Below, in pieces: positions 19,823 through 51,363 of a stretch of DNA of 64,000 nt (position 1 is the first letter of the stretch; each line of letters opens with the position of its first letter). The stretch is from Aminobacter carboxidus (GTDB lineage Bacteria; Pseudomonadota; Alphaproteobacteria; Rhizobiales; Rhizobiaceae). The translations under genes were made by a program, and so were the position numbers. The stretch spans positions 310,001-374,000 of the forward strand of contig NZ_JACZEP010000002.1 in assembly GCF_014863355.1 (NCBI RefSeq), read 5' to 3'. The notes below the pieces were generated by a model. It was given only the letters and a program-made list of their open reading frames with translations, had not been told where the DNA came from and searched no databases.

Positions 19823-20398
19823 ATGAGCATGACAATACGGCACGCGCTGCCAACCGACCTTGACCGGATCACCGAGATCTATGCCGACGCGGTGCATAAC
19901 GGCACCGCGAGCTACGAGCTGGAGCCGCCGACGCGCACCGAGATGGGCACCCGCTTCGAAGCGCTGATGGAGGGCGGTTACCCATATCTCGTCGCCGAGC
20001 GTGACGGCGTTATCTTGGGCTATGCCTATGCCGGCCCGTTCCGGGCGCGTCCTGCCTATCGCTTCATCGTCGAGGATTCGATCTATGTCGCGCCGGAAGC
20101 CAAGGGCGCGGGCATCGGCAAGGCACTCATGCAGGCATTGATCGACGAATCGACGGCGCTCGGCTTCCGCCAGATCATCGCCGTGATCGGCGACGGCCAT
20201 GCGGAAAGTCCCTCGGTGCGGCTGCATGAAAAGCTCGGCTTTCACCACACCGGACGGATGGAAGGCTCGGGCTACAAGCATGGCCGCTGGCTCGACACCG
20301 TGTTCATGCAGTTGGCGCTGAATGGCGGTGCGACGCTGCCACCAGATCCGGGTTCGATGCCCGAGCGGCGTTTCGTGGCCAGAGGCGGCAAGGGTTGA
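19823..20398 (+). CDS. GNAT N-acetyltransferase, phosphinothricin-acetyltransferase-like
   Basis: 191 residues. The sequence follows the PAT/YncA pattern: IRHALPTDLDRITEIYADAV, then GTASYELEPPT, the linker GYAYAGPFRARPAYRF, and the acetyl-CoA loop APEAKGAGIGKALM. YncA-type enzymes acetylate methionine derivatives or L-amino-acid analogues. It converges on pcm with four bases between the stops. Confidence 0.88.
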   Translation: MSMTIRHALPTDLDRITEIYADAVHNGTASYELEPPTRTEMGTRFEALMEGGYPYLVAERDGVILGYAYAGPFRARPAYRFIVEDSIYVAPEAKGAGIGKALMQALIDESTALGFRQIIAVIGDGHAESPSVRLHEKLGFHHTGRMEGSGYKHGRWLDTVFMQLALNGGATLPPDPGSMPERRFVARGGKG

Positions 20399-45016: not shown

Positions 45017-45910
45017 TCAGTGCGCCGGCGTTGTCGCCGCCGCCGCGCGGGCATGCGACCGCTTCAGCCAATAACCGAAGATCGCCGCGGTGATGAAGGC
45101 GATCAGCCCGTAGATCGCTGCCGGAACCGCCATCGTCGCGTTGTTCAGCAACAGCGGGCTGAGTGCGATGGCGATCGCCAGCGTGCCATTGTGGATGCCG
45201 ATCTCCATGCCGATCGCGGTTGCCTGGCGCTTTTCGACGCCAGCGGCGCGCGGGACAAAATAGCCGACGCCGAGGCTGACGAGGTTGAAGGCAAGTGCAG
45301 CGAGGCCGACGATCGGGCCCCAGGCCTTGAGCGTTTCCCACTCCTGGACAAGTGCCACGGCAACCACCGCAAACAAGAACAGCATCGAAAAGATCTTCAC
45401 TGGTCGCGCCATGCGGTCGGCGAAGGCCGGGAAGCGGCTGCGCAGCCACATGCCGATCAGCACAGGCCCGAGCACGATGACGAACACCTGCACCACCTTG
45501 GCGAATTGCAGCGGAATCGCCTGGTCGCCCGACATGAAATGCGCCAGCGACCAGTTGACGATCAGCGGCAGCGTGAGGATCGACAGCGCCGAATTGATCG
45601 CCGTCAGCGTGATGTTCAACGCCACGTCGCCATCGGCCAGATGGCTGTAGAGATTGGCCGAGGTGCCGCCCGGGCTTGCCGCGAGCAGCATCATGCCCAC
45701 CGCCAGCGCCGGCTCGAGGCCGAAGACATAGACGATGCCCAGGCAGGCCAGCGGCAGGATGACGGTCTGGCAGAGCAATGCGACGAGCACCGCCTTGGGT
45801 TTTTGCAGAACGTTGCGGAAATCCTCTGTCGTCAGCGACAGGCCAAGGCCGAGCATGATGACGCCGAGCGCCAGCGGCAGAAATATGATGAGCGCGGAAC
45901 TGTCTTGCAT
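45017..45910 (-). CDS. Bile acid:sodium symporter (BASS) family transporter
   Basis: 297 residues with about nine helices. GLSLTTEDFRNVLQKPKAV near the start and ASPGGTSANLYSHLADGDVA in the middle are the BASS signature. Ile/Leu-rich helices continue to FITAAIFGYWLKRSHA at the end. Bacterial members move small organic acids with sodium; the substrate is unknown. Single gene between the small DUF1127-like gene and the ccm operon. Confidence 0.92.
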   Translation of the reverse strand: MQDSSALIIFLPLALGVIMLGLGLSLTTEDFRNVLQKPKAVLVALLCQTVILPLACLGIVYVFGLEPALAVGMMLLAASPGGTSANLYSHLADGDVALNITLTAINSALSILTLPLIVNWSLAHFMSGDQAIPLQFAKVVQVFVIVLGPVLIGMWLRSRFPAFADRMARPVKIFSMLFLFAVVAVALVQEWETLKAWGPIVGLAALAFNLVSLGVGYFVPRAAGVEKRQATAIGMEIGIHNGTLAIAIALSPLLLNNATMAVPAAIYGLIAFITAAIFGYWLKRSHARAAAATTPAH

Positions 45911-46034
45911 TTACGCCTCCCCGACAGCCGCTTGCCGCGCCGTTGCGGCGTGCCTCTCCCCAGCGGCTGTATGAAAACGTAGTGCAAATCCAGACGATTC
46001 GCACCTGTCGCGAAAGGTCGGTCATATCAGGCGA

Positions 46035-46610
46035 TTATTGTGCGGCGAGCGCCTTTTCGATCGCCGGCATCAGCGTGGCGGTGACCGCCTCCGGCGACAA
46101 TGGCCCGACATGCTTGAAGGCGACCTTGCCGTCCTTGCCGACGAGGAACGTCTCGGGCACGCCATAGACGCCCCAGTCGATCGCGGTGCGGCCATTCTGG
46201 TCGACGCCGACGGCCTTGAACGGATTGCCGAGATCGCCGAGGAAGCGGCGGGCATTCTCCGGCTTGTCCTTGTAGTTCAGCCCAGCGATCGAGAAACGCT
46301 GGTCCTTGGACAGTTCGAGCAGCACCGGGTGCTCTTCGCGGCACGGCGCGCACCACGATGCCCAGACATTGACCAGGGTCACCTTGCCGGTGAACTCGGC
46401 CGAGTTGAGACCGGGCAACGAGAGGCCTTCGAGCGGCGGCAATTCGGTCTTGGGTGCGGTCTGGCCAATCAGCGCCGATGGAACGGCGGTCAGGTCGCGG
46501 CCGGACAGCAACTGCACCAGGAACAGGCCGGCGAGCGCCAGGAAAATCAGCAGCGGCAGCAGGACGAAGATCCTGCGCGGCCGCGCCGGCTTCTGGCTTT
46601 CGAAGCTCAT
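46035..46610 (-). CDS. ccmG: Cytochrome c maturation thiol:disulfide protein CcmG/DsbE
   Basis: 191 residues: one membrane anchor near 15-35, then a periplasmic thioredoxin domain with VNVWASWCAPCREEH (C-x-x-C) and GVYGVPETFLV (cis-Pro). This is the CcmG layout. It reduces apocytochrome c. Its ATG overlaps the ccmD stop (ATGA). It is the last gene of the operon. Confidence 0.96.
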   Translation of the reverse strand: MSFESQKPARPRRIFVLLPLLIFLALAGLFLVQLLSGRDLTAVPSALIGQTAPKTELPPLEGLSLPGLNSAEFTGKVTLVNVWASWCAPCREEHPVLLELSKDQRFSIAGLNYKDKPENARRFLGDLGNPFKAVGVDQNGRTAIDWGVYGVPETFLVGKDGKVAFKHVGPLSPEAVTATLMPAIEKALAAQ

Positions 46611-46771
46611 GCCTTTGCCTTGTCCGAGCGACGGCGGTGACCGGCGGCTTCGAGCTCGGCCATTTCGCGCTTGCGGGCGCGCTGGTCAGCGAGGATCCAG
46701 AGGATCAGCCCGGCGATCGCAAGCGCTGAGATGCCATAGGCGGCGGTGACATAGAGGGCGTGCGCGCTCAT
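46607..46771 (-). CDS. ccmD: Heme exporter accessory protein CcmD
   Basis: 54 residues: MSAHALYVTAAYGISALAIA, then a membrane helix and a basic tail (DQRARKREMAELEAAGHRRR). This is the standard CcmD pattern. CcmD helps release holo-CcmE from the CcmABC complex. Its ATG at 46771 overlaps the stop of a 15-codon frame that remains from ccmC. Confidence 0.9.
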   Translation of the reverse strand: MSAHALYVTAAYGISALAIAGLILWILADQRARKREMAELEAAGHRRRSDKAKA

Positions 46772-46815
46772 CGGGCACCCTGGCAAGACTTGGTCATGTC
46801 GCTGTTTCCGAGCAT
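46768..46815 (-). pseudogene. ccmC: Remnant of ccmC (15 codons)
   Basis: ccmC, normally about 250 codons, lies between ccmB and ccmD in rhizobia. Here this place holds only a frame of 15 codons, MLGNSDMTKSCQGAR, with GAAGAG before its ATG and a stop overlapping the ccmD ATG as ATGA. The beginning resembles a ccmC start and the end keeps the ccmC-ccmD junction, as after an in-frame deletion of the gene's interior. The remainder of the gap to ccmB is 76 bases. Whether this is real or an assembly gap is not decided here. Confidence 0.75.
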
Positions 46816-46891
46816 TCTCTTCACTTAACGGCGGGCCAGCGGCGATGCAATCGGACGCCGCGCCGCACCGTGGCGGTTGAAGTGATCGTGA

Positions 46892-47557
46892 TCAGTCGGT
46901 GCCCGAGCGCAAGGCGACCGCCGCCGCCAGCGGGCCGATGACGGCGAGAAACATGGTCAGCGCGCACAGAATCAGGAACGGCGGGGTGAACGGGTCGGGA
47001 TCGTTGACCGCGCCATAGCTTGCTGTGACGCCGAAGATCAGCACGGGGATGACCAGCGGCAGCACCAGAACCGAGATCAGCAGGCCGCCGCGCGGCAGGG
47101 CGACGGTGACGGCGGCGCCTGCGGCGCCGATGAAGACGATGGCCGGCGTACCGACGAGCAAGGTGAGTGCGGTAGCTGCGATGCCGACAGGCTCCATGTT
47201 CATGAACAGGCCAAGCAACGGGGCGGCGATAACCAGCGGCAGCACGCTCGCGGTCCAGTGCGCCAGGCATTTGATCAGCACCGTCAGCGCCAGCATGTGC
47301 CGGTCGGCATTGAGTAGCAGCAGGTCGAGCGAGCCGTCCTCGCGGTCGGCCTGGAACAGTCGGTCGAGGCCGAGCAGGCTGGCGAGCAGTGCGCCGATCC
47401 ACAGTATCGCCGGACCGATGCGGGCGAGCAGGTTGAGGTCGGGGCCGACACCGAAGGGGATGGTGACGATGACGGCGAGGAAAAACAGTACGCCCGTCAA
47501 GGCGCCACCGCCGGCGCGGACGCCCATTCTGAGATCGCGGAGGTAGAGGGCTAGCAT
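46892..47557 (-). CDS. ccmB: Heme exporter membrane protein CcmB
   Basis: 221 residues with six helices. It starts MLALYLRDLRMGVRAGGGAL, with FQADREDGSLDLLLLNAD and the final FLILCALTMFLAVIGPLAAAVAL. These match CcmB over the full length. CcmB pairs with CcmA and normally with CcmC to deliver heme to CcmE. The start lies 219 bases after the end of ccmA, and a repeat element fills that gap. Confidence 0.95.
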   Translation of the reverse strand: MLALYLRDLRMGVRAGGGALTGVLFFLAVIVTIPFGVGPDLNLLARIGPAILWIGALLASLLGLDRLFQADREDGSLDLLLLNADRHMLALTVLIKCLAHWTASVLPLVIAAPLLGLFMNMEPVGIAATALTLLVGTPAIVFIGAAGAAVTVALPRGGLLISVLVLPLVIPVLIFGVTASYGAVNDPDPFTPPFLILCALTMFLAVIGPLAAAVALRSGTD

Positions 47558-47600
47558 GGATGCCCTCCATAGATGTGCGCGGAGAAATGGTGTTCCTGCC

Positions 47601-47757
47601 CACCCCCCTCTGTCCTGCCGGACATCTCCCCCGCAAGGGGGGAGATTGGCAGCTTCAGCCTCGCCGGAACTCCTGCAGAGTTGTCGATTGGCAACGACCG
47701 GCCCACAGTGTGATCTCCCCCCCTGCGGGGGAGATGTCCGGCAAGACAGAGGGGGGT
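47601..47757. repeat. Inverted-repeat element between ccmA and ccmB
   Basis: CACCCCCCTCTGTCCTGCCG opens the left arm (47601-47646), and the right arm (47711-47757) is its near-perfect inverted copy, including GACATCTCCCCCGCA...GGGG. About 64 bases lie between. Together they make a 157-base unit with long arms, a small non-coding mobile-like (MITE-like) element of the RIME type. It interrupts the spacing of the ccm operon without breaking a frame. Confidence 0.85.
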
Positions 47758-47776
47758 GCGAAAGAGCGCAGTGCTT

Positions 47777-48388
47777 TCAGACATACACCCGCCCCATCTC
47801 CAGCGTCTTCACGCCCTGCAGCCCGAGCGGCAAATGCGTTGCGGCGACGACGATTCCGCCGGCGGCACAATGGTCCTGCATCAACGCTGCGAAACGCGCA
47901 TCCGATGCCTTGTCGAGGCCAGATGTCGGCTCGTCGAGCAACCAGACCGGGCGATGGCTGATGAGCAGCTTGGCGATGGCGGCGCGGCGCTTCTGGCCGG
48001 TCGAGAGATAGCCGAAGGGCAGGTGGCCAAGGCCGCCGAGGCCGACCTCTTCGAGTGCGTCCGAGACGCCGAGCTGGCCGTCGCCAGCGAAGTCGCGCCA
48101 GAACTCGAGGTTCTCCTGCACGGTCAGGGCCGACTTCATCGCGTTCAGGTGGCCGAGATAGTGACAGGCCGAGGCAACCGTCGGAAACGCCTCGCTGTCG
48201 CCCTCGAAAGCGATTCGTCCGTGGCTGTGCGGCAGGAGCCCTGCGATGACGCGCAGCAAGGTCGACTTGCCCGAGCCGTTGGGGCCGGTGACGACAAGTG
48301 CCTCGCCGTCAGCAAGCACGAAGCCGATGCCGTCGAAAACCGCCTCGCCACCACGTTCCCCGCTGAGATTTTCGGCGATAAGCCGCAT
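47777..48388 (-). CDS. ccmA: Heme exporter ATP-binding protein CcmA
   Basis: 203 residues. Walker A is [17 protein letters not shown] near residue 35, signature YLSTGQKRR, Walker B WLLDEPTSGLD. The length and the S-x-G-Q signature are those of CcmA. It is the ATPase of the CcmAB unit that frees holo-CcmE. First gene of the operon; divergent from acnA. Confidence 0.95.
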   Translation of the reverse strand: MRLIAENLSGERGGEAVFDGIGFVLADGEALVVTGPNGSGKSTLLRVIAGLLPHSHGRIAFEGDSEAFPTVASACHYLGHLNAMKSALTVQENLEFWRDFAGDGQLGVSDALEEVGLGGLGHLPFGYLSTGQKRRAAIAKLLISHRPVWLLDEPTSGLDKASDARFAALMQDHCAAGGIVVAATHLPLGLQGVKTLEMGRVYV

Positions 48389-48453
48389 TCTTCCCCCGTC
48401 GCCGAGACCATGTCGCTGCCGCTTTGCTTCGCAGCAAAATAGGCGAATCTCCG

Positions 48454-48470
48454 TCTAGAACTATTCCAAT
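48454..48470. promoter_or_regulatory. Irr-box (ICE) like site upstream of acnA
   Basis: TCTAGAA-CTA-TTCCAAT differs at few positions from the consensus TTTAGAA-N3-TTCTAAA of the iron regulator Irr in rhizobia. A CTATAT (48478-48483) suitable as a -10 lies just downstream, so binding would cover the -35 region. Irr is known to repress iron-rich enzymes including aconitase when iron is low. Confidence 0.5.
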
Positions 48471-48672
48471 AAATTCTCTATATGCCACTCGACCATGCCA
48501 GCGGTCGGCATGGAAACAGAATTTGCGCCGAACCAGCGCACGCGCCGCCTTGAACGGCTCGGGTTGCTTGGGACCGGACAGCGGAAATGGCCGTACCCGC
48601 ACCTTTGCGCGTGATTGCATGCCCATCGGAGTCCGTTCCCTTTCAGGTTGAACAGACAAGGATGGATCGCAC

Positions 48673-51363
<2,691 letters not shown>

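Follow-up and report, generated by a model that had tools for sequence, protein, structure and literature searches.

The window, that is, the whole 64,000-nucleotide stretch of Aminobacter carboxidus DNA analyzed here, carries on its minus strand, in this order, ccmA, ccmB, ccmD and ccmG, all four of which score above their curated NCBIfam cut-offs (Table 1). The gap between ccmB and ccmD is 120 bases, and a sequence-only reading of this DNA had noted that nothing of the size of ccmC stands there, just a 15-codon frame, MLGNSDMTKSCQGAR. This description held, and tblastn placed no ccmC in the gap. The ATGA overlap described earlier was confirmed as well: the TGA at 46768, which ends the frame starting with the ATG at 46815, overlaps the ATG of ccmD. 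For the ribosome site that had been ascribed to this micro-ORF, the highest-scoring Shine-Dalgarno match at that place in this species was only TAAG. Between ccmA and ccmB (47594-47765) lies a palindromic intergenic repeat, with 53-base arms that are 91% complementary and 66 bases apart; its 16-base core has 9 copies in the genome, compared with 0 for the reversed control.

Table 1. Features of the ccm locus in the window
Feature	Position	Strand	Description
ccmA	47777..48388	minus	Ccm heme transporter, ATP-binding subunit; NCBIfam TIGR01189, 230.7 bits, cut-off 131.6
ccmB	46892..47557	minus	NCBIfam TIGR01190, 256.4 bits, cut-off 156.2
ccmC-type upstream element	46816..46851	minus	ATTGC, 18 bases, TTAAGT, 7 bases, ATG; promoter-like by comparison
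Micro-ORF, MLGNSDMTKSCQGAR + TGA	46768..46815	minus	15 codons; read as ccmC shell and ccmD leader cistron
ATGA overlap, micro-ORF stop / ccmD start	46768..46771	minus	Read from the sequence
ccmD	46607..46771	minus	NCBIfam TIGR03141, 59.1 bits, cut-off 25.95
ccmG	46035..46610	minus	DsbE-family thiol-disulfide protein; NCBIfam TIGR00385, 186.2 bits, cut-off 123.15

Location of ccmC and completeness of System I

A genome-wide profile search (6.29 Mb in 31 contigs, completeness 100) revealed only one full ccmC, at G000:C1:782922-783473 (275.6 bits, over the cut-off), on a contig other than that of the window. The gene sits behind ndvA, whose product belongs to the glucan exporter family TIGR01192 (987.7 bits, cut-off 585.4). 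The stretch ahead of ndvA matched no NCBIfam family and is read as the end of ndvB, and the gene behind ccmC, which has no NCBIfam family above the cut-off, is read as nitronate monooxygenase-like; glpK follows next on the opposite strand (NF000756, 734.2 bits, cut-off 498). The relocated CcmC aligned with the solved E. coli CcmC (7f02 chain C) over 222 residues (E 3.8e-64), and the alignment spans the WWD segment WGTWWVWDARLTS and both histidine segments; in E. coli, H60 and H184 are reported as the heme ligands of CcmC and the WWD motif as binding heme (PMC6204919). The WWD motif and the two heme-ligand histidines of a CcmC are thus present.

Matches to ccmE, ccmF and ccmH were found on the same contig as ccmC (C1:443524-446319), so that CcmA to CcmH are all encoded, A, B, D and G in the window and C, E, F and H on C1. 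The earlier reading had proposed a search for ccmE, ccmF and ccmH and had named another copy of ccmC, another system, or a loss of c-type cytochromes as the alternatives; the first of these proved to be the case, nothing found pointed to a loss of c-type cytochromes, and loss of System I was rejected. Judging by gene content, the System I pathway of cytochrome c maturation is expected to be intact, ccmC being expressed at its other locus.

Distribution and history of the relocation

The closest named relatives of the CcmB in the window are Aminobacter. Among ten genomes of the same genus, ccmB was found in nine, and the tenth, which is 81% complete, shows neither ccmB nor ccmC; all nine have ccmC behind ndvA, and all nine have the same kind of ccmB-ccmD junction. 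We then compared 80 named ccmB loci, in 64 of which ccmD follows ccmB with no intervening ccmC, while ccmC precedes ccmD in 11, two of these lying ~4.5 kb from ccmB, and 5 have no ccmD in the retrieved stretch (L080, L098, L111, L142 and L149). ccmC itself was searched for in 50 of the 80 named genomes, one of them an Aminobacter that is also counted among the nine above. Every one of the 50 has one ccmC match over the cut-off, to which one genome adds a 174-base piece at a contig end. The gene lies behind ndvA in 37 of these genomes (an automatic rule identified 36, and a longer stretch had to be read for G167; ~1.4-1.5 kb separate ndvA and ccmC in G129 and G167); of the remaining 13, it stands beside ccmD in 12, and one, at a contig end (L167), is unclassed. 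The relocation is also found in most sampled Mesorhizobium and in some neighbouring genera. In M. camelthorni (L221; G138, contig C63) there is a partial second ccmC-like stretch (65% identity over 96 residues) that runs off the contig end.

Nothing was found in favour of an assembly error or of a recent, strain-specific deletion, and like junctions in 9/9 same-genus genomes and 64/80 named loci make the idea scarcely credible; assembly error was excluded because the relocation is common to the nine same-genus and 37 of the 50 named genomes. The deletion that the sequence-only reading had proposed stands insofar as ccmC is gone from the site, but it is not fresh, the relocation being shared by the genus and its relatives. 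Taken as the report of a missing gene the case is ordinary: an alarming gap, with a heme-handling gene missing, becomes an explained, clade-wide relocation, and when genomes of this clade are annotated, the place behind ndvA should be checked for ccmC.

It is probable that ccmC, with its own upstream element, was copied or moved behind ndvA in an ancestor of the genus and of most sampled Mesorhizobium. In a tree of acnA, ccmA, ccmB and ccmG combined, the moved genomes fall in one starred clade (L142, whose contig ends there, is labelled 'in place' and L080 'moved' in this tree, both without evidence). That clade includes Mesorhizobium albiziae (L107), in which ccmC is still in place between ccmB and ccmD. 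A duplication of ccmC, with both copies persisting for a while and the old one being emptied independently in several lineages, would account for this species. In its favour, acnA alone nests M. albiziae among moved genomes, beside Corticibacterium and Aminobacter (a single clade of the moved rows is disfavoured at AU p 0.047, which is borderline), and a tblastn search of the 1.5 kb following its ndvA gave no ccmC, nor is a ccmC scar visible there by eye in 260 bases. On the other side, in the ccmA+B+G tree the species falls immediately outside the moved genomes (support 86, not starred; L142 is again labelled 'in place' without evidence in this and the acnA tree), the ccmC tree does not decide its placement (AU p 0.433), and regain by recombination is equally likely. 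We regard duplication with differential loss, the old copy being emptied separately, as conceivable but doubtful; one relocation plus a regain may be the case instead.

In several other lineages (L094, L101, L196, L211 and L213) ccmC, ccmD and ccmG lie together, apart from ccmAB. This agrees with ccmC heading a unit of its own, as reported for the Magnetospirillum operons ccmAB and ccmCDEFGHI (PMC9549626). In these split lineages ccmC stays with ccmD, whereas here it is ccmC that leaves, and ccmAB keep ccmD and ccmG beside them. A search of open-licence papers returned nothing relevant on a moved ccmC or on a leader of ccmD.

The upstream element and the origin of the micro-ORF

Most ccmC genes, moved or in place, are preceded by ATTGC, ~17-18 bases, a TATGTA- or TAA-like stretch and ~7 bases before the ATG. 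A profile of this element was built from 88 distinct ccmC upstreams, among them that of the window genome's own moved ccmC (L006, L019 and L023, in which no start was found, were left out), and its training set holds no ccmB-ccmD junction. TTGC occurs within the expected stretch in 75 of the 88 upstreams, and in 69 of these 75 it lies 35 or 36 bases before the ATG; some ccmC upstreams are clearly without the element, the left-one-out score having a median of 13.8 and a 5th percentile of -15. With this profile the start of the micro-ORF ranks 4th of 127,922 window positions, and only 2 of the 2,059 ATGs in the window score at least 8, namely this start and one at 19829 on the plus strand. Across the micro-ORFs, the distance from TTGC to ATG is 34-37 bases in 64 of 66 rows, and 83% of 59 distinct starts score at least 8, a figure inflated by the use of this profile in choosing the starts.

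The -10-like part ahead of the micro-ORF in the window is weak (TAAG.. instead of TATGTA). A plain sigma-70 promoter of the E. coli type was rejected, as the consensus scan of 45900-48700 found none, and the element therefore rests on comparison, not on consensus. We infer that it would act as a promoter, and its spacing suggests that transcription would start near the A of the start codon, giving an mRNA that is almost leaderless. In S. meliloti, 171 leaderless mRNAs have been reported, and ccmC is not named in the main text of that paper (PMC3616915).

The stop of the micro-ORF is likewise of the kind found in ccmC beside ccmD, since ccmC genes next to ccmD finish with ATGA or GTGA in 25 of 37 distinct cases, in contrast to 3 of 48 moved ones. 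Both the start context and the type of stop of the ancestral ccmC are thus found in the micro-ORF. Its own codons are less telling. They matched the head of ccmC at a mean of 8.79 of 15 positions versus 7.37 in shuffles, and the tail with a score of 9.11 versus 8.39, in rows that are related to each other and against shuffles that, here as in the Shine-Dalgarno comparison below, were plain and not dinucleotide-keeping, which is a modest excess; ccmC-like ends are kept in a few lineages (MSKT.. in L104, L144 and L147 and, read by eye, ..AERQA in L076). The case for homology between these codons and the head and tail of ccmC is only suggestive. The in-frame internal deletion that had been proposed agrees with where the frame lies, with its start context and with its ATGA stop, all as in ccmC. 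At the old site the body of ccmC would have been lost, leaving the upstream element, the start codon and the stop overlapping ccmD, which can still be read in the sequence.

Frame keeping and probable coupling to ccmD

Short ccmB-ccmD junctions, a count that omits 5 loci without ccmD, 11 with ccmC before ccmD and 3 with gaps above 300 bases (L074, L076 and L106, read by eye), comprise 70 rows, or 67 distinct junctions after removal of 3 duplicates. A frame whose stop forms part of an ATGA or GTGA at the start of ccmD is present in 66 of these 67, with doubtful starts in L122, L129 and L130; in the other, L150, the chosen start was spurious and the micro-ORF is absent. Overall, 67 of 70 distinct junctions have the micro-ORF, including L076 (Mesorhizobium sp. 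STM 4661), where an intact micro-ORF is followed by an insert of ~1.5 kb at its stop and the ccmD start. It is not indispensable, because L074, L106 and L150 do without it. The gaps of L074 and L106, of 478 and 484 bases, are alike by eye at both ends, and the two loci are not sisters on the tree; the intergenic piece may have been exchanged. A TGA one base into ccmD is in itself trivial, since any second codon beginning with A gives it; chance does not explain a start codon in the matching frame behind a ccmC-type element, recurring across junctions.

Where the start is secure, the micro-ORF is 7-25 codons long, its sequence is unlike between lineages, and at least 19 length changes are required on the tree (58 rows). 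For a test of the frame we used 27 species pairs on disjoint paths, with starts picked without regard to frame and L150 dropped. The length of the micro-ORF differs in 11 of the 27 pairs, by a multiple of 3 in 11/11 (10/10 when the pair with the doubtful L122 start is removed), while the spacer between the end of ccmB and the micro-ORF start differs in 21 pairs, by a multiple of 3 in only 3 (Fisher 2.8e-6, or 6.4e-6 without L122). No codon-position pattern was detected, the variation within the micro-ORF being about equal at all three positions. Because length changes come in threes and variation is even across codon positions, the frame appears to be kept and the peptide apparently is not. 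Together with a stop that overlaps the next start, these are the features of a coupling leader.

A frame held across so many length changes would also be seen if the micro-ORF encoded a small peptide with a function of its own, such as regulatory leader or small CcmD partner, but the range of lengths, the dissimilar sequences and the variation that is not lower at first and second codon positions make this highly improbable. In the Rfam search of 45900-48700, no structured RNA match reached the gathering score.

The micro-ORF looks like more than debris. Our preferred reading, which we consider quite probable, is that ccmC moved behind ndvA clade-wide and that the emptied old site has been retained because it couples translation to ccmD as a leader, a role suggested because the frame is kept without the peptide. 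The micro-ORF would be translated mainly so that ribosomes end at the ATGA and restart on ccmD; ribosomes that formerly crossed ccmC would now cross a few codons before restarting at the overlap. Consistent with this, within the 15 bases scanned ahead of ccmD a 4-base Shine-Dalgarno core occurs in 55 of 66 rows (44% of plain shuffles), and GGAG, GAGG or AGGA in 42 of 66 (28% of plain shuffles); in the window species the best match there is just GGTG. Since CcmD is reported as necessary for holo-CcmE to be released, and not for the attachment of heme (PMC6204919), a steady supply of CcmD is a plausible target of selection.

Alternatively, the micro-ORF may be merely tolerated, with the old ccmC start still firing and selection only stopping an out-of-phase run into ccmD, with no positive coupling. 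The peptide without a conservation pattern and the three junctions lacking a micro-ORF would both be expected under mere tolerance; an in-frame fusion to ccmD, however, should then be as harmless, yet 66 of the 67 short junctions use ATGA or GTGA, which is also the commonest end of ccmC beside ccmD, and the Shine-Dalgarno cores before ccmD exceed the shuffles. We find this explanation weaker than coupling, and unlikely.

Under the coupling reading, it is reasonably likely that here the body of a gene has left its operon while its promoter, start and stop are kept clade-wide by selection purely as a cistron delivering ribosomes to the next gene. An emptied gene may well serve as a natural bicistronic leader and be recognisable as such by a frame that is kept without the peptide. 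A natural, frame-kept leader of this origin is probably modestly new. The ~67 natural micro-cistrons of various lengths at one site offer a ready set for testing coupling rules, and their evolution would be evidence for the importance of translation up to the ATGA to a membrane protein of ~50 residues.

The layout of the micro-ORF and ccmD resembles the leaders of the synthetic bicistronic design (BCD), which is described as combining a single promoter with a first cistron of <20 residues, whose 3' end contains the Shine-Dalgarno of the second gene, and with a 1-bp shift in frame from the first stop to the second start that gives translational coupling (PMC5995908). The relatives with ccmC in place have the same kind of overlap, but the partner upstream of ccmD here no longer encodes CcmC. 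Unlike the BCD leaders, the putative leader of ccmD occurs in nature and apparently stems from the shell of a gene of the operon; both its length and its peptide vary, and translation of its first cistron may begin almost without a leader.
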